A stretch of 64,000 nt of DNA from Myxococcota bacterium (GTDB lineage: Bacteria; Myxococcota_A; UBA796; JAJRTE01): NCBI GenBank assembly GCA_024278455.1, contig JAJRTE010000315.1, forward strand, positions 1 to 64,000, read 5' to 3'. Below the pieces are notes generated by a model. It was not told the DNA's origin. It searched no databases and saw only the letters and a list, made by a program, of their open reading frames with translations. Below, in pieces: positions 22,204 through 30,523 of this stretch (position 1 is its first letter; each line of letters opens with the position of its first letter). The translations under genes and the position numbers were made by a program.

Positions 22204-23751
22204 TCAAGGTCCTTTCTCCTCTGCCGCCCCGGTCTGGGCAAAGGTGGCCAGCGCCAGTTCCCTGAATCGGATGGCTTCTCGAAAACCATCCCGCCTCGGC
22301 ACCCAGAGCGCCTCGGCCGCGGCGAATCTCGCCCTCGCGGTCTCGCCGTCCCCCTGGGCGTCATAGGCCAGCGACAGCATGTACAGGTCCAGGCACATCT
22401 CCTCTCTGCGTTCTCCCGTCGGCGGAGTCGATATCCTGGGCACGGACCACCCGGAAGACTCCGCCAGCAGAGCGAGCAGCGCGTTGCCGGGAAGCAGAAC
22501 CTCGCGCACCCGGTCCGTCAAGGTCGCTCGAGACGCACGGCGGTAGGCGGCCTCGAGCTGGGCGACCGCTGCCAGGTAGTCCCCCCGCACGAAGTAGACC
22601 CAGCCCAACGTGTTCAGGTACGCAGCCGCCCGCTCTTCCCGGACCGCGGCTCGAGCCAACCGCAGGGCCTCGTCGAGGGCGGGGTCGTCCCCGGCAGCGT
22701 TCAGCGCCAGGACCCAGGCGAGGGCATTCTTCACCGCCGCCGAACCGTAGCCGGACGCCAGGGCAGCGCGGTAGTCTTTTTCGGCTGCCGGCAGCCTGCC
22801 GGCTCGATAGCGTGCTTCTCCGCGAAGGTAGTGGAGAAAGGCGTCACCAGGATCGGCGTCGAGGAAACGAGACAGCACCTCTATTTCGCCCAGTTCGTCG
22901 CGACCTCCCGCGGATGGACCCAGGAGTTCGAGAGAGTCTCGAGCACCCACTACCCCGTGATAGCCTGCCGACAGCGAGACCAGGCAGGTCGCCGCGAACG
23001 CGACGCCCTGCACGACCCGGGTCACGCGCGATGGGGGCGATGGCGAGAGCCGGGTATCCAGGAGAAGGCCCAGCGCGGCGCCCGCCAGGAGCCCTCCCAG
23101 GTGTGCCCAGTTGTCGATCGCACGATAGAACATGCCCAACCCGAGCATGACGGCCACCCAGGGCAGCAGGTACCAGGTGAAATGGCGCCTGAGCGACGGG
23201 GGAATCCGGCGATAGGAACGGAAGCCGAACACCAGCAAGGCGCCCATCAGGCCGGCAAGGGAGGCCGATGCTCCCGCTGAAATCGTGTCGGTCATCACCG
23301 CGCTCAGCAAGAATCCTCCAGCTCCGGAGAGGACATGGAGAACGACCAGCCTGGCCCGCCCGAAGAGGTTCTCGCACACCATGCCCAACTGGATCAGCGT
23401 CAGGCTGTTCACGACGAGGTGGAGCCAACCGATGTGCAAAAAACTCGCGGTGACCAGCCGCCACCATTCGCCATGGAACACCAGGGAACGGGCCTTGGCA
23501 CCGAATACGAGCAACAACACCTCGTTGGTACTGCCTCCTCGAGCTTCCAACAGCAGGAAGACAACCAGGTTGATGACCATGATGGCCACGGTGACCGGGG
23601 GAAACCGGAACAGCGGCGCCACGAACGCGCGTTCCTGTTCCAGCACGTCGTCGGCGCCGGGCTCCCGCGCGACAGCATTGAGTGGTTCTCCGCAGAAGGG
23701 ACAGTTCGAGAAGCGGTCCGGGAGGTTGGCACCACAGGCCTGGCATTGCAT
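22204..23751 (-). CDS. Rhomboid-family intramembrane protease with zinc ribbon and TPR tail
   Basis: This is a 515-residue membrane protein. The N-terminus is a four-cysteine zinc ribbon (C3, C6, C17, C20). A hydrophobic rhomboid core follows, from about residue 50 to 310, with the HIGWLHLVVN segment (H106, H111, N115), a serine loop GASASLAG with S162 as predicted nucleophile, and H217 in NWAHLGG as its partner. The usual GxSG is GASA here. From about 330 the protein has TPR-like repeats, likely cytoplasmic or periplasmic depending on topology. Rhomboids cut transmembrane segments of client proteins and may act on anchoring tails such as the MYXO-CTERM-like ones coded nearby, although this is a guess. 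In-frame starts exist upstream (23853, 23940), but the ribbon favours 23751. Confidence 0.88.
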   Translation of the reverse strand: MQCQACGANLPDRFSNCPFCGEPLNAVAREPGADDVLEQERAFVAPLFRFPPVTVAIMVINLVVFLLLEARGGSTNEVLLLVFGAKARSLVFHGEWWRLVTASFLHIGWLHLVVNSLTLIQLGMVCENLFGRARLVVLHVLSGAGGFLLSAVMTDTISAGASASLAGLMGALLVFGFRSYRRIPPSLRRHFTWYLLPWVAVMLGLGMFYRAIDNWAHLGGLLAGAALGLLLDTRLSPSPPSRVTRVVQGVAFAATCLVSLSAGYHGVVGARDSLELLGPSAGGRDELGEIEVLSRFLDADPGDAFLHYLRGEARYRAGRLPAAEKDYRAALASGYGSAAVKNALAWVLALNAAGDDPALDEALRLARAAVREERAAAYLNTLGWVYFVRGDYLAAVAQLEAAYRRASRATLTDRVREVLLPGNALLALLAESSGWSVPRISTPPTGERREEMCLDLYMLSLAYDAQGDGETARARFAAAEALWVPRRDGFREAIRFRELALATFAQTGAAEEKGP

Positions 23752-23847
23752 GGCAATCCATCTGGAAGGGCATCCGAATGTGGGGCGGGCGAACCATTGC
23801 CCCCATCGAGCCCCGGGGTGTGTCTTGTGCAGCTTTCGGGTTTCATT

Positions 23848-23876
23848 TTGCATAGAACAGTCAAATGGGCTAGAAT
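23848..23876 (+). promoter_or_regulatory. Promoter for the FG-GAP/MopE giant protein
   Basis: TTGCAT (23848-23853) and TAGAAT (23871-23876) are spaced by 17 bp. Predicted initiation near 23883 leaves about 45 bases before the ATG at 23929 and makes the ATG at 23887 an unlikely start. Confidence 0.6.
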
Positions 23877-23928
23877 CAATGCCACCATGAGACCGTGCAC
23901 CATCCAGAAAGACAGGAAGGATTGCGAT

Positions 23929-26900
23929 ATGAAGTGGCACAATGCGTGGCTTCGCCGTCCCGGGATGCTGGCGGCCCTGGCGCTCCCGGTGTTCCTGGCG
24001 ACAGGCATTGCCCTCGTGTGGGCTGAATGGCCTGAATTTTCCCCGGTGACCCTGGATGAACCTTCCGATCCGAGTTCGGAGACGAACTACTCTACCGCGA
24101 TCTATCCGTCCATGGGTCCGGTCATCGACGCCGGCGCGGATCTCGACGGCGACGGCTACCAGGATATCGTGTTTTCCAACCCCGACAGCAGTACCACGGG
24201 TGCCGTCTTCATCTTCTACGGAGACGGCACGGCGCCTCGCGGCACCATCGACACGGCTCAGGCTGTCGTCATAACCGGCGGCAGCGCCGGTGACCTTTTC
24301 GGCATGTCGATCGCCACCGGGGATGTCACCGGGGACGGAATCGACGACTTGGCCGTCGGCGCCCCGGGTGAAAGCGGGGGCACGGGTACGGTTTACGTGC
24401 TGCCGGGAGGGGCGAGGCTTTCGGGGGGCTCCATCGATACGGTCTGCGGCTCCGGATGCGTCACACTGAGCGGGACCGATACCGAGTTGGGGGGGAACGC
24501 TGATGGTGGCGAGGTCGGGTACTCGGTGGCCATCGGCAACGTGGGGAAGGGGTGGAACCCGGGTGCAGAACCGACGAATGGTGTCGAGGATCTTCTTGTC
24601 GGCGTCCCGGGCACCTCGAGGGCGTATCTCATCTACGGCCCGGTTGTCGGGTGGGTGGACCCTGCTGGCTTGCTTATCGAGTTCTTCGACTATGACGGAA
24701 CGCGTGCCGGAGAAGCGGTGGCGATCCTGGATGATATGAACGACGACGGCGAGAGCGCCAGAAATGAAAGACGTGAAATCGCCATCGGCGCTCCTTCAGC
24801 CCTGACGGGAGGAGGAAAGATGTTTCTCTTGGGGGGGCGCGGGGCCTACTACCTCAATTCGTCGCCCTATTTTCTCCCTGATGCTCTCACCTTGAGGGTC
24901 TTGATAAAGGGAGATCTTCTGGCTGGCACCTCCAAGGTGGGGAACCTGGGTGCTGCCATCGCCGACGTCGGGGACGTGGACGGCGACGGCTACCCCGACG
25001 TGGCGTTCACCGCGCCTTACGCCCCCATGGTGAGCAGTTCCACCAACCCATCGAGGCTCGAAGCCGGGCGGGTGTACATCTACTTCGGGGGGCCGAACGC
25101 GCTCGACACCCAAACCTTGGACCTGTCGACTCTCGGGTGCTTTTTCTACGGAACGTCCACGGGGAGTCATCTCGGCCATGCCGTTTCCGGTGCCGGCGAT
25201 GTGGATGGAGATGGCTGGTCGGATTTCCTGGTCGGGGCACCCCAAACCTCGAGTATCAACAAGGGTGCGGCCTACCTGGTCGCCGGCCGCCCGGAGGCGC
25301 AGTGGCCCGGGGCGGGGGGCGGAACGGGGGGGGCGACGGTCGATGGGTCGCCCAACGCCGTATTCGTGGGCAGGTCTACGGGAGCCAATGCGGGCGGGGG
25401 CGTTTTCGGGAGCCCTGAGATCGACTTCGACAGCGATGGCTACGGTGACTTTTTCATCGCGGCCCCAGGCGACACGAGCGACGGCACGACCTATTTCATC
25501 TCGCTCAGTGACTTCTATGACCGGGATGGCGACGGGCAATCGATTGCGAACGCGGATTGCGACGACTTCGACGACTCGGTGTACGACGGCGCGGACGAGG
25601 TCTGTGACGGACTCGACAATGATTGCGACACACTCATCGACGACGCGGACAGTTCGGTAATCGGCCAGAATGCCTACTACCGGGATCGCGACGGTGACGG
25701 CTATGGTAGCAACACGACCACCTACACCTGTTCCACTATGCCTCCGGCCGGCTACGTGTCGGACACCGGAGACTGCGATGACTACGATTCGAGCATACAC
25801 CCCGGCGCGACCGAGGTCTGCGACGGGGACGACAACGATTGCGACGGCCTGGTCGATGACGACGACGATCCCGTGTTCGGCCAGACGACCTACTTCGGAG
25901 ATTCCGACGGAGACGGATACGGCGGGCCAGGGAGCGGAACGCTGGAGACCTGCGCCACCACGGTACCCAGCGGCTACTCGGACAATACCGACGACTGCGA
26001 CGACGGCAGCGCTGCGGTGCACCCCGGCGCGACCGAGGTCTGCGATGGGATCGACAACGACTGCGACGAGCTGGTCGATGACTATGATGATTCCATCACC
26101 GACCAGAACACCTACTATTTCGACAGCGACGGCGACGGCTATGGCGATGAGACGATCGTGACCAAGACGTGCGACACCACGCCACCGGCAGACAACACCG
26201 CCACCGGCGAAGACTGCGACGATGACGACCCGGACATCAACCCAGAGGCCACGGAAGTGTGCGACCTGATCGACAATGACTGCGATGGCAAGGTGGACGC
26301 AGCGGATCCCTCGCTGGATGGCGTGCCCTTCTATCCCGACGCGGACGGCGATACCTATGGCGACGAGACTGCCGATCCGACCCCGGGGTGCGAGGACTAC
26401 CCCCCTGCCGGCAAGGTGACGGACCACGGCGATTGCAACGACTCCGACCCGGACATCAACCCGGGAGCCCAGGAAGTGTGCGACGGCCAGGACAACGATT
26501 GCGACGGGAAAAAAGATGACTACGACGATTCCGTCACCGGTCAGACCACCTACTACCGGGACAACGACGACGATGGCCACGGCAGCCTCACCAGTGGGCA
26601 GACGAAGACCTGCTCGAGTTCGCCTCCTGACGGATATGCCGTGTCTCACGATGATTGCAACGACACGAATCCGGCCATCTACCCGGGCGCGGTGGAACTG
26701 TGCGACGGGGGCATAGACAACGACTGCGATGGGTTGGCCGATGACGACGATTCTCCCGTTCAGGGCCAGAACACCTACTACGCCGACAAGGACGGCGACG
26801 GGTATGGAGACGAAGAAGACGTGATCATGACCTGCTCGAGCACCCCACCCGATGGGGCGGTCTCCACTACCGGTGACTGCAACGACGTGGCCGCCACTGT

Positions 26901-28437
26901 CTACCCCGGTGCCCCGGAGGGCGTTACGACCGACCCGCTCAAGGGCTGTCTCGTCGGCGATGGTATCGACAACGATTGTGACCCGGACACCCCCACGGAC
27001 CAGGGAACTTGCGGTTTCGACGATGACGGCGACGGCGCCACGGAGTACGACGGCGACTGCGATGACGCCGACCCGAGCGTCAACCCATCAGCAGTGGAAC
27101 TGTGCGACGCCATCGACCATGACTGTGACGGCAACGCCACCAACGGTTATGACTTGGACGGCGACGGCCACTTGTCCCAGGCCAACTGCACTGGCGAGTT
27201 GCTGGGCGACGATTGCGCGGACAGCGACCCCGAGGTGTACGCCGGAGCCACGGAACTGTGTGACAACAAGGACAATGACTGCGACGGGGTCACCGACGAA
27301 GGCTTCGACGTGGACGAAGACGGATACCTCTCCCTCGAGACCTGTCCCTCCAGGGGCACCGACTGCGACGATCTCGACGCCACCATCCACCCCGGTGCCG
27401 AGGAATTGTGCGACGACATAGACCAGGACTGTGACGGCGACGCGACCAATGGCTTCGATCTGGACGGCGACGGCTACGTCTCCGAATCCCTTTGCGGCGA
27501 CTACTGCGCCACCGCGACCTGCGACTGCGACGACTCCGACCCCAACATCAACCCGGCCGAGATCGAGATCTGCGACGGCGTCGATAACAACTGCCAGGAC
27601 GGGATAGCGGACGAACAGGCCGACGCGGACGGCGACTCCGTCTTCGTCTGCAACGCCTCCGACACCTCGCTCCAAGACTGCAACGACACCAACGACACGG
27701 TGTATCCCGGTGCCGACGAGTTGTGCGATGGACTGGACAACAACTGCGACAGGATTCCCCCCGAAGAGGAGGACGAGATCGACGGCGACGGCGACGGCGT
27801 CATGGTGTGTGCCGGGGACTGCGACGACACCACCCAGGATGTCAACCCAGACCAGGTGGAAGTGTGCGACGGGCTGGACAACGACTGCAACGGCGAAGTC
27901 GACGATGTGGCAGACGTGAGCCCGGCCGTGAGCGGCGCGGGCACCTACTACGAGGACGTTGACGGCGACGGCCACGGTGCTCCAGGTGCCGGCACGTTGA
28001 GTTGTAGCCCCATACCGGGCCATGTCGAGGGCAGCAACGACGACTGCGACGACTCCGATGTGGAGACCTATTTGGGGGCCACCGAACTGTGCGACGGTAA
28101 GGACAACAACTGTGACAACTTGCCGGACGAACAGGTGCTGGCCTTTGACCGCGACGGCGATGGATACCTGGATGCCAAGCAATGTACCCTGTTTACAGAT
28201 ATCGAACTGGACTGCGACGACGGGAACAAGTCGATAAACCCGGCAGCCAAGGAAGTCCCCGGTGACGGTGTCGACAATAACTGCGATGGGCAACTGACAC
28301 CAAGCGACACCACTTTCGAAGACTCGGGAATCGGGTGCAGCACCTCGAACAGCAGGCCGCTTTCCAGCACCGCTCCATGGTGGGTCGCCGGCTTGTGGAT
28401 GGGTCTCTCGGCAAAGCGACGGAGAAAAGCCGGGTAG
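23929..28437 (+). CDS. Giant surface protein: FG-GAP propeller, about 15 MopE repeats, MYXO-CTERM-like tail
   Basis: This 1502-residue exported protein has a signal peptide (about 1-32) ending VWA. Residues 60-510 contain repeated FG-GAP units (DLDGDGYQDIVFSNP, DVDGDGYPDVAFTAP, DVDGDGWSDFLVGAP, DSDGYGDFFIAAPGD), as in calcium-binding integrin-type propellers. From about 526 to 1453 there are about 15 copies of the DCDD..PGATEVCDGxDNDCDG unit (putative metal-binding MopE motif, paired Cys). The end has a GCSTS motif, a hydrophobic stretch and KRRRK, a MYXO-CTERM-like sorting signal. It should be exported and surface-anchored, with calcium or other metal bound along the stalk. The ATG at 23929 is chosen by AAGGA nine bases upstream and the promoter at 23848. 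Confidence 0.92.
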   Translation: MKWHNAWLRRPGMLAALALPVFLATGIALVWAEWPEFSPVTLDEPSDPSSETNYSTAIYPSMGPVIDAGADLDGDGYQDIVFSNPDSSTTGAVFIFYGDGTAPRGTIDTAQAVVITGGSAGDLFGMSIATGDVTGDGIDDLAVGAPGESGGTGTVYVLPGGARLSGGSIDTVCGSGCVTLSGTDTELGGNADGGEVGYSVAIGNVGKGWNPGAEPTNGVEDLLVGVPGTSRAYLIYGPVVGWVDPAGLLIEFFDYDGTRAGEAVAILDDMNDDGESARNERREIAIGAPSALTGGGKMFLLGGRGAYYLNSSPYFLPDALTLRVLIKGDLLAGTSKVGNLGAAIADVGDVDGDGYPDVAFTAPYAPMVSSSTNPSRLEAGRVYIYFGGPNALDTQTLDLSTLGCFFYGTSTGSHLGHAVSGAGDVDGDGWSDFLVGAPQTSSINKGAAYLVAGRPEAQWPGAGGGTGGATVDGSPNAVFVGRSTGANAGGGVFGSPEIDFDSDGYGDFFIAAPGDTSDGTTYFISLSDFYDRDGDGQSIANADCDDFDDSVYDGADEVCDGLDNDCDTLIDDADSSVIGQNAYYRDRDGDGYGSNTTTYTCSTMPPAGYVSDTGDCDDYDSSIHPGATEVCDGDDNDCDGLVDDDDDPVFGQTTYFGDSDGDGYGGPGSGTLETCATTVPSGYSDNTDDCDDGSAAVHPGATEVCDGIDNDCDELVDDYDDSITDQNTYYFDSDGDGYGDETIVTKTCDTTPPADNTATGEDCDDDDPDINPEATEVCDLIDNDCDGKVDAADPSLDGVPFYPDADGDTYGDETADPTPGCEDYPPAGKVTDHGDCNDSDPDINPGAQEVCDGQDNDCDGKKDDYDDSVTGQTTYYRDNDDDGHGSLTSGQTKTCSSSPPDGYAVSHDDCNDTNPAIYPGAVELCDGGIDNDCDGLADDDDSPVQGQNTYYADKDGDGYGDEEDVIMTCSSTPPDGAVSTTGDCNDVAATVYPGAPEGVTTDPLKGCLVGDGIDNDCDPDTPTDQGTCGFDDDGDGATEYDGDCDDADPSVNPSAVELCDAIDHDCDGNATNGYDLDGDGHLSQANCTGELLGDDCADSDPEVYAGATELCDNKDNDCDGVTDEGFDVDEDGYLSLETCPSRGTDCDDLDATIHPGAEELCDDIDQDCDGDATNGFDLDGDGYVSESLCGDYCATATCDCDDSDPNINPAEIEICDGVDNNCQDGIADEQADADGDSVFVCNASDTSLQDCNDTNDTVYPGADELCDGLDNNCDRIPPEEEDEIDGDGDGVMVCAGDCDDTTQDVNPDQVEVCDGLDNDCNGEVDDVADVSPAVSGAGTYYEDVDGDGHGAPGAGTLSCSPIPGHVEGSNDDCDDSDVETYLGATELCDGKDNNCDNLPDEQVLAFDRDGDGYLDAKQCTLFTDIELDCDDGNKSINPAAKEVPGDGVDNNCDGQLTPSDTTFEDSGIGCSTSNSRPLSSTAPWWVAGLWMGLSAKRRRKAG

Positions 28438-28598
28438 TGTGACGTGTCTGTCGAGCCCCAGACCATCGACCGCGTTCGCCGTCGCATGTCATGTGCCCCG
28501 GAGCACGTGGTTGGGGTTCACTGCAGCACGTTCACGAAAAATAGGTAACGCCCCTGTGGATCGCCCTGCGGGTGGCAGCGAACCAGGACCGAACGCCC

Positions 28599-29468
28599 AT
28601 GGCGTGGCAACGCTGGCGGTTCAAAGGAAATAAGGTGTACGCCAGGGTGGGAGCGAAGGACCAGTTGCTTCCGGCCAAGGGGCGCGTGGAGATCCGCTAC
28701 AAGCTCGACGACCCCCGGGCGTACCGCGTGAATCCATCGAGCCTCCAACCGCTTCCGGCCGAAGAGGGAGGGGACCGACTCTGGCCGGATGGCGACGCCG
28801 CCCCCGTGGATCCGGCTTCGCGCCCTGAGGTCCTGGGTCGCGAGGAAACTGCGTCCGGTGAAGATACGGCCGGGACGGCAAGAGACTCCCGGCCGCCCGG
28901 TACCCCTTCTGTCGGGGTGATCGAGAAAACGCTCCTTCCCTCCGGGTCGCAACGTACGACGCTATTGAACGACAAGCCCCCCATTGTCATTTTCACCGAC
29001 GGTTCGTGCCAGGGCAACCCTGGGCCCAGCGGCATTGGCATCGTGATGACCTGCGCCGGCCGGCGCCGGGAGCATTCGGAATACCTGGGGCAGGGTACGA
29101 ACAACACGGCGGAACTGACGGCCATCCTGCGGGCGCTGGAACTGGTGAAGGACCCTGATCGTACAGTCATTCTGTACACGGACAGTCAGTACAGCATCGG
29201 CGTGCTCGGCGGCTGGAAGGCCAAGGCGAACCAGGACATCATCGAGCAGATCAAGCGGGCCCGCACCCGCTTCCCGGATCTCAGGTTGCGCAAGGTGGCC
29301 GGCCATTCCGGGAACATCGAGAATGAACGGTGCGACGAACTGGCCAAGGACGCCATCCACAGGCACGCCGCGAGAGCGCCGGCAGTGCCGCAATCCCAAG
29401 ATGGTGCCACGGGGCGGGCTGCGACGAGCCCGGTCCGTCCGTCCTCGCCGGAATCCTCCAAAGGTTAG
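28599..29468 (+). CDS. rnhA: Ribonuclease HI with N-terminal basic domain
   Basis: This 289-residue protein has its RNase H fold at residues 128-255. The catalytic acids are D134 (FTDGSCQGNPGP), E172 (TNNTAELTA), D195 (YTDSQYSI) and D246 (NERCDELA), with H236 in AGHSGN, so it should cut RNA in RNA-DNA hybrids. Residues 1-55 are a small basic beta domain (AWQRWRFKGNKVYARV, VEIRYKLDDPRAYRV), followed by a flexible linker. Standalone RNase HI is about 155 residues, so the front half is an extra module that may bind nucleic acid. A GTG at 28572 is also in frame. The gene ends 116 bp before the Sm-like gene, which has its own promoter. Confidence 0.92.
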   Translation: MAWQRWRFKGNKVYARVGAKDQLLPAKGRVEIRYKLDDPRAYRVNPSSLQPLPAEEGGDRLWPDGDAAPVDPASRPEVLGREETASGEDTAGTARDSRPPGTPSVGVIEKTLLPSGSQRTTLLNDKPPIVIFTDGSCQGNPGPSGIGIVMTCAGRRREHSEYLGQGTNNTAELTAILRALELVKDPDRTVILYTDSQYSIGVLGGWKAKANQDIIEQIKRARTRFPDLRLRKVAGHSGNIENERCDELAKDAIHRHAARAPAVPQSQDGATGRAATSPVRPSSPESSKG

Positions 29469-29503: not shown

Positions 29504-29533
29504 TTGACGCTCCCGCGCTCCCATGCCTATAAT
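29504..29533 (+). promoter_or_regulatory. Strong housekeeping promoter for the Sm/Hfq-like gene
   Basis: TTGACG (29504-29509) and a perfect TATAAT (29528-29533) are separated by 18 bp. The predicted start near 29540 gives a 45-base leader. This is the best promoter match in the window. Confidence 0.75.
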
Positions 29534-29584: not shown

Positions 29585-30523
29585 ATGAATGGACACCGCA
29601 GGGGCCCACAGGGCAAGAGCGGCTCGAGAGCAACGAGAGAAGACGGCAGGGGGAAGGGGGGCGACTCGAGGCCCCGCGCGGGTCGTGCTCGGGGCCCGAA
29701 TGCGAGGTCCGGTTTCAAGAAGGGGCAAGGGCATCGCCGACAGGGGGGAGCGCCGGGGGCCCGCAAGGGGCCACGCGCGAGGCGGCCCAGGCTTCCCGTC
29801 GCGGTGATCAAGCAGGCCAAGACCCTGGTGGCTCAATCCGGTATTCCCTTTCCTGCTGCGCTCCGGGTGGTCCAGGGGAAGACCACGCTCAACGAAGTGC
29901 TCCAGTCGCTGCTCCGTGAGGAGAAAATCAGGAAACTGATGACCGCTCACACGATAAACCGCGCGCTGGCCACCAACGTCGCCCTGGGAAGAACGGACCT
30001 GGAGATCGTGTTGTTGAGGCGGCGAAATAACGAGACGCTGCATCAGCACTACCATCGGAGCTGTCTCGAGGAGTATCGCCTGTCAGGCTCCAGGATCGCG
30101 CTTGCACTTCACGGGCACAAGAAGGTGATGGGAACCGTGGAGGAAAACGGCAAGTTCACCATCTTGTTCCGGCAGGATCCCCAGGACGACCCCGTGGAAA
30201 TCCACAAGACCGAGATCAAGTTCGCCTACGACCCGGATCAATTCAAGGTGGTCAAGAAGTTCCTCAAGATCGACAACAAGGTGAAGGCCATGCATCTCGG
30301 ACCGCTCTTGAATCCTCGAGATCGCCACCACTTCAAGAACTTGACACTCCAAAGGGCACTCGACGCGCACGAAGAAGTCCAGGTGACGACCCTCGAGGGT
30401 GACGTTCTGCGAGGCCACGTGGAGTGGTTCGGGAGATGGGAGTTTGGCTTGAAGTTCAAGGGCGGAGCGCGCGCCACCGTGTTCCGGCATGCCGTCTACA
30501 AGCTCCACAGGGTCACTCGGTAG
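29585..30523 (+). CDS. RG-rich protein with two Sm/Hfq-like segments, putative RNA-binding protein
   Basis: This protein has 312 residues. Residues 1-70 are disordered and very basic, rich in Arg, Gly and Lys. Residues 71-150 look helical (VAVIKQAKTLVAQSGIPFP, TLNEVLQSLLREEKIRKL). Two beta-rich segments follow that resemble Sm/Hfq barrels: about 165-215 (SRIALALHGHKKVMGTVEENGKF, VEIHKTEIKFAY) and about 262-310 (EVQVTTLEGDVLRGHVEWFG, ATVFRHAVYKL). The last block parallels the Hfq Sm2 motif YKHAIS. Hfq itself is about 80-100 residues and forms hexamers; here two units lie in one chain. An RNA chaperone or regulator role is inferred. The ATG at 29585 follows GAGAGCGGC. The stop overlaps the end of convergent folC by 11 bp. 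It is not a family I can name. Confidence 0.72.
   Translation: MNGHRRGPQGKSGSRATREDGRGKGGDSRPRAGRARGPNARSGFKKGQGHRRQGGAPGARKGPRARRPRLPVAVIKQAKTLVAQSGIPFPAALRVVQGKTTLNEVLQSLLREEKIRKLMTAHTINRALATNVALGRTDLEIVLLRRRNNETLHQHYHRSCLEEYRLSGSRIALALHGHKKVMGTVEENGKFTILFRQDPQDDPVEIHKTEIKFAYDPDQFKVVKKFLKIDNKVKAMHLGPLLNPRDRHHFKNLTLQRALDAHEEVQVTTLEGDVLRGHVEWFGRWEFGLKFKGGARATVFRHAVYKLHRVTR

Follow-up and report, generated by a model that had tools for sequence, protein, structure and literature searches.

A probable fused and strongly diverged Hfq with two Sm units in a class of Myxococcota

Classical Hfq consists of one Sm unit of about 70 residues per chain. Chains with two Sm units have been described as tandem-Sm Hfq in Zymomonas mobilis and six other Sphingomonadales species, for which a ring of three chains was raised, and the Zymomonas protein is reported to be 60% identical to Escherichia coli Hfq (PMC2877685). 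Two fused Sm units in a single chain are therefore not unprecedented. Other members of the Sm superfamily vary in their assembly: the archaeal Hfq-like protein MJ1435 is a single Sm unit of 71 residues, and the eukaryotic Lsm1-7 ring is built from seven separate proteins. Here, we describe a bacterial protein that likewise carries two Sm-like units per chain, as do the Sphingomonadales proteins, and assess how it compares with each of these systems.

The gene lies on the plus strand at positions 29585 to 30523 of the window, by which we mean the entire 64,000-nucleotide stretch of contig JAJRTE010000315.1 that was analyzed. It starts with an ATG at 29585, its stop codon ends at 30523, and its translation yields a product of 312 amino acids. 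A sigma-70-type promoter-like site (TTGACG-18-TATAAT; 29504 to 29533, plus strand) is located 52 bp 5' of the start codon. This site, pointed out in the first-pass annotation, agrees with the consensus at 11 of 12 positions and is the sole match in 2.3 kb, against 0.3 expected from shuffled sequences; its identification as a putative promoter reflects a consensus match. The 3' end of the gene overlaps by 11 bp (30513 to 30523) with that of a convergent Mur-ligase-type (FolC-like) gene on the minus strand.

The same annotation had proposed an Arg/Gly-rich disordered stretch of about 70 residues followed by a helical part and two Sm/Hfq-like segments, and this architecture is borne out throughout. 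We modeled the protein with AlphaFold2 from an alignment of 38 sequences. Residues 1 to 71 (29585 to 29797, plus strand) are 65% R/G/K/P and predicted to be disordered, with a pLDDT of about 45 over most of the tail, while the pLDDT reaches 97 to 98 for most of residues 70 to 310. Residues 72 to 155 (29798 to 30049, plus strand) are predicted to form helices and represent a tandem duplication of a repeat of about 36 residues with the motif AxxVAxGxxxLxxVLxR, the two copies aligning to each other with hhalign at E = 4e-11. No Pfam family matched this repeat. Variants of 435 to 485 amino acids, with a longer helical part ahead of the two Sm units, are found in family f46 (L138, L139, and L142).

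The remainder of the chain comprises two units with the alpha1-beta1..5 topology, and both adopt the Sm fold of an N-terminal helix and a five-stranded bent sheet in the model and in Foldseek comparisons. Sm unit 1 spans residues 160 to 215 (30062 to 30229, plus strand), with a helix at 160 to 167 and strands at 171 to 215; Sm unit 2 spans residues 252 to 309 (30338 to 30511, plus strand), with a helix at 252 to 261 and strands at 264 to 309. The pLDDT of the Sm units is mostly 95 to 98. The structure prediction and fold search that the first-pass annotation called for place Hfq as the nearest solved structures: Foldseek matches, whether for the complete model or for Sm1 by itself, are Hfq in almost every case with a probability of 1.00, at E-values of 5e-4 to 1e-2 that are modest, as is usual with folds so small. 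Identity to the Hfq chains in these alignments is about 20%. The Lsm1-7 ring (PDB 4m75) also appears in the Foldseek list of Sm1, at rank 45.

The signal from the single sequence is weak. Pfam Hfq matches residues 255 to 305 with E = 0.003 and 17.5 bits, below the 27-bit cutoff, and the protein falls below all curated Hfq cutoffs of the Pfam and NCBIfam Hfq models. We thus gathered evidence from the family, on which the assignment to Hfq rests. Pfam Hfq matches 19 of 31 members (best E = 2.6e-9), Hfq_1 matches 24 of 31, and TIGR02383 matches 15 of 38. Most members score under the curated cutoffs of these models; only two members from the class exceed that of Pfam Hfq, and L134 exceeds that of Hfq_1. 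Profile comparisons connect each unit to Hfq separately. The Sm2 profile matches archaeal Hfq-like and bacterial Hfq chains in the PDB with E = 9e-5 to 7e-4, and the Sm1 profile matches Staphylococcus aureus Hfq with E = 0.002. The two profiles also match each other (E = 4e-5). The Sm1 profile also picked up gp41 chains, which we set aside as coincidental matches or unrelated helices. We found no family model that covers the protein under another name and no already named family with another function.

The proximal face of Hfq forms a uridine pocket from residues K56, H57, and F42. Corresponding positions are strongly conserved in both units of the new family. In Sm2, all 38 sequences share G277, E286, R301, and H302, and residue 285, which aligns to F42 of Hfq, is always W, Y, or F (38 of 38). 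The parallel drawn in the first-pass annotation between the segment FRHAVYKL and the Hfq motif YKHAIS is real, since R301-H302 aligns to the K-H of Hfq. In Sm1, all 38 sequences have H207 and K208, and all have Y or F at residue 191; the window's class carries HK at this site, compared to KH in Hfq. In distant relatives, Sm1 carries KHDIK, and Sm2 carries RHA, THA, or FHA. Judging from these sequence patterns, the conserved residues resemble the uridine pocket of Hfq of the (K/R)H type and constitute a putative binding site. The position equivalent to Q8 of Hfq is mostly Ser in the family and Lys in the window protein, indicating that the pocket differs from that of Hfq.

These features define how the protein relates to the known systems. 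It shares the Sm fold with an N-terminal helix, the (K/R)H signature, and the aromatic residue at the F42 position with both Hfq (PF17209, TIGR02383) and Hfq_1 (PF21979, NF047718), but, unlike classical Hfq with its single unit, it has two diverged units preceded by an RG tail at the N terminus and a domain of helical repeats. The tandem-Sm Hfq of Sphingomonadales is close to canonical Hfq, whereas both units of the window protein are far from it, at about 20% identity, and the helical repeats and RG tail are absent from the description of the Sphingomonadales proteins; the two are set apart by that description (PMC2877685). MJ1435 (PDB 2qtx) and the related chain 5dy9 are the best PDB profile matches of Sm2 (E = 9e-5 to 1.5e-4), but MJ1435 has one Sm unit versus two. 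The Lsm1-7 ring has the Sm fold in common and, if the ring model outlined below holds, would also share a ring of unlike units, although its structural match is much weaker than that of Hfq.

We assessed the distribution of the family by searching with residues 70 to 312, which detected orthologs in 60 of the 71 genomes of the window's class, nearly always in a single copy. The matches mostly have 27 to 41% identity and cover the greater part of the query; where a genome has two matches, as a few do, they look like one gene split across contig ends. A profile that included distant members showed that 70 of 284 sampled genomes of the phylum carry the protein, including members of the scattered families f14, f35, f37, f41, f45, f46, and f52 outside the class, and the same 70 genomes were recovered with a profile restricted to the two Sm units. 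An alignment-based scan of named genomes identified 47 loci, labeled as Deltaproteobacteria, Myxococcota, Myxococcales, or Proteobacteria, of which a few bear obviously wrong labels, such as Klebsiella. A strict single-sequence scan of genome contigs returned nothing. The gene was not found in families f2 and f3 of the class. A viral origin was rejected, given that no relatives were found in viral contigs and no PHROG match was obtained.

The first-pass annotation suggested checking whether a standard hfq is absent from the genome. In the window's own genome, which is 94% complete, the tandem-Sm gene is the sole Hfq match. A PF17209 search found no stand-alone Hfq in 67 class genomes or in 141 phylum genomes, where the only matches over the cutoff belong to the tandem-Sm family, while all controls (E. 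coli, Bacillus subtilis, Caulobacter, Thermotoga, and Methanocaldococcus) were matched. Hfq was not found in families f2 and f3 either. ProQ was likewise detected in 0 of 67 class genomes, with the E. coli control matched, and we rejected it as an alternative chaperone in the class; non-detection of Hfq or ProQ in incomplete genomes is not equivalent to proof of absence, and it is consistent across many genomes. The Myxococcus marker TIGR02265 occurs in at most two copies per genome in the 141 phylum genomes, so the sample probably does not include Myxococcus. Weak Hfq-like matches outside the family (genomes G115 and G094; L094:49-1422 and L095:851-1654) were rejected as Hfq, as they sit in larger, seemingly exported or membrane proteins with signal-peptide-like or membrane segments; these are probably short Sm-like beta segments with no relation to Hfq.

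The computations thus show that proteins of this family have two predicted Sm folds, are homologous to Hfq, keep residues of the pocket type, and occur class-wide, and that searches for Hfq and ProQ found neither. We consider it probable that the tandem-Sm protein is a strongly diverged Hfq with fused units that serves this lineage as an RNA chaperone, likely with three chains forming a six-unit ring. It is the best candidate for a general RNA chaperone where neither Hfq nor ProQ was found. We infer that the protein binds RNA, assembles into a ring, and takes part in regulation by small RNAs, along the following lines. Three chains would close into a ring of six Sm units carrying (K/R)H-type uridine pockets, and this ring would hold small RNAs and mRNAs by their U-rich ends. 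The basic Arg/Gly-rich tail could speed RNA-RNA annealing, and the helical repeats may modulate the ring or attach it to a partner. The first-pass annotation proposed a previously undescribed type of RNA-binding protein that may replace or supplement Hfq. The Sm folds and the failure to find hfq agree with replacement or supplementation, but the tandem-Sm Hfq of Sphingomonadales is a precedent that weighs against the claim of a new type (PMC2877685). Families f2 and f3, with neither the tandem-Sm gene nor a detected Hfq, count against the chaperone reading, since a chaperone may be dispensable there.

Gene neighborhoods point to a possible different function. The RNase HI gene reported just upstream in the first-pass annotation is indeed present at 28572 to 29468 (plus strand; Pfam RNase_H, E = 1e-26), but it is not the adjoining gene in relatives, and we judged it to be outside the system. 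A tblastn search found none of the window's RNase HI, FolC, outer membrane, or TPR neighbors at the relatives' loci, and a functional link between the tandem-Sm gene and RNase HI was rejected because this neighbor is not conserved. The window also contains a very long open reading frame at 23335 to 28437 with many DxDGDGY and DCDDxDxxxxPGAxExCDGxDNDCDG repeats, which by eye resembles a MopE-like or calcium-binding surface protein. A different arrangement is conserved in the class. In 42 of the 43 loci with enough downstream sequence, the Sm gene is followed by an N-terminal half of RdgC of about 205 amino acids (Pfam RdgC, E = 1e-5 to 3e-9) and then by a third open reading frame of about 175 amino acids, for which we found no Pfam match and no convincing PDB match. 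The ends of the latter two genes mostly overlap. The pair is found at L040:6764-7881, L046:2936-4089, and about 40 further loci, and the two parts are also present at L146:3210-4520. The pair resembles an RdgC divided between two genes, and in the window's genome, a single long open frame on a different contig holds both the RdgC-like and the third-frame part.

This conserved neighbor makes a DNA-side role possible, in which the protein would be a nucleic acid-binding Sm ring that acts on DNA or the nucleoid together with the RdgC-like ring protein, for example in recombination or replication, and not as a small-RNA chaperone. We regard this alternative as unlikely despite the near-constant gene order, for several reasons. 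The RdgC-like gene is on another contig in the window's genome, neither it nor the third open reading frame was found beside members outside the class, and families f2 and f3 retain an RdgC-like gene without the Sm gene. Coupling between the Sm and RdgC-like genes is therefore not obligatory. Moreover, the residues conserved in the family are those of the uridine pocket of Hfq. A more elaborate version of the preferred reading, in which a previously undescribed, class-wide RNA chaperone, made of fused Hfq units with helical repeats and an RG tail, replaces both Hfq and ProQ in part of a deltaproteobacterial phylum, forms a three-chain ring in which unlike units alternate, and is functionally coupled to the RdgC-like system, is one that we put forward tentatively and with some doubt.

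We assign a similarly low probability to the possibility that the protein, rather than being a general small-RNA chaperone, is an Sm-type factor with a single housekeeping task, such as the maturation of rRNA or tRNA or the decay of mRNA. Its single-copy, near-universal occurrence in the class would fit such a task, and the helical repeats and tail, which classical Hfq lacks, could serve one fixed partner; its absence from f2 and f3 shows that the gene is not strictly essential everywhere. However, the homology in the hit lists is with Hfq rather than with other Sm-like folds, and the (K/R)H signature is retained. Finally, the idea that short beta-rich stretches resemble Sm units by chance, which the single-sequence match under curated cutoffs might suggest, is highly improbable and refuted as far as prediction allows by independent profile and fold evidence for both units and by conservation across the phylum.

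We found no paper describing the tandem-Sm family in the open-license literature. Work on the small RNA Pxr of Myxococcus xanthus noted that myxobacteria lack an hfq homolog and that another protein may be the chaperone (PMC5684412, PMC5568312). The tandem-Sm family, probably a fused and diverged Hfq, is a concrete candidate for such a role in a seemingly related part of the deltaproteobacterial tree. If its two Sm units are unlike, such a chain would also illustrate a route by which homomeric Hfq rings can evolve toward rings of different units, as the eukaryotic Lsm rings did.
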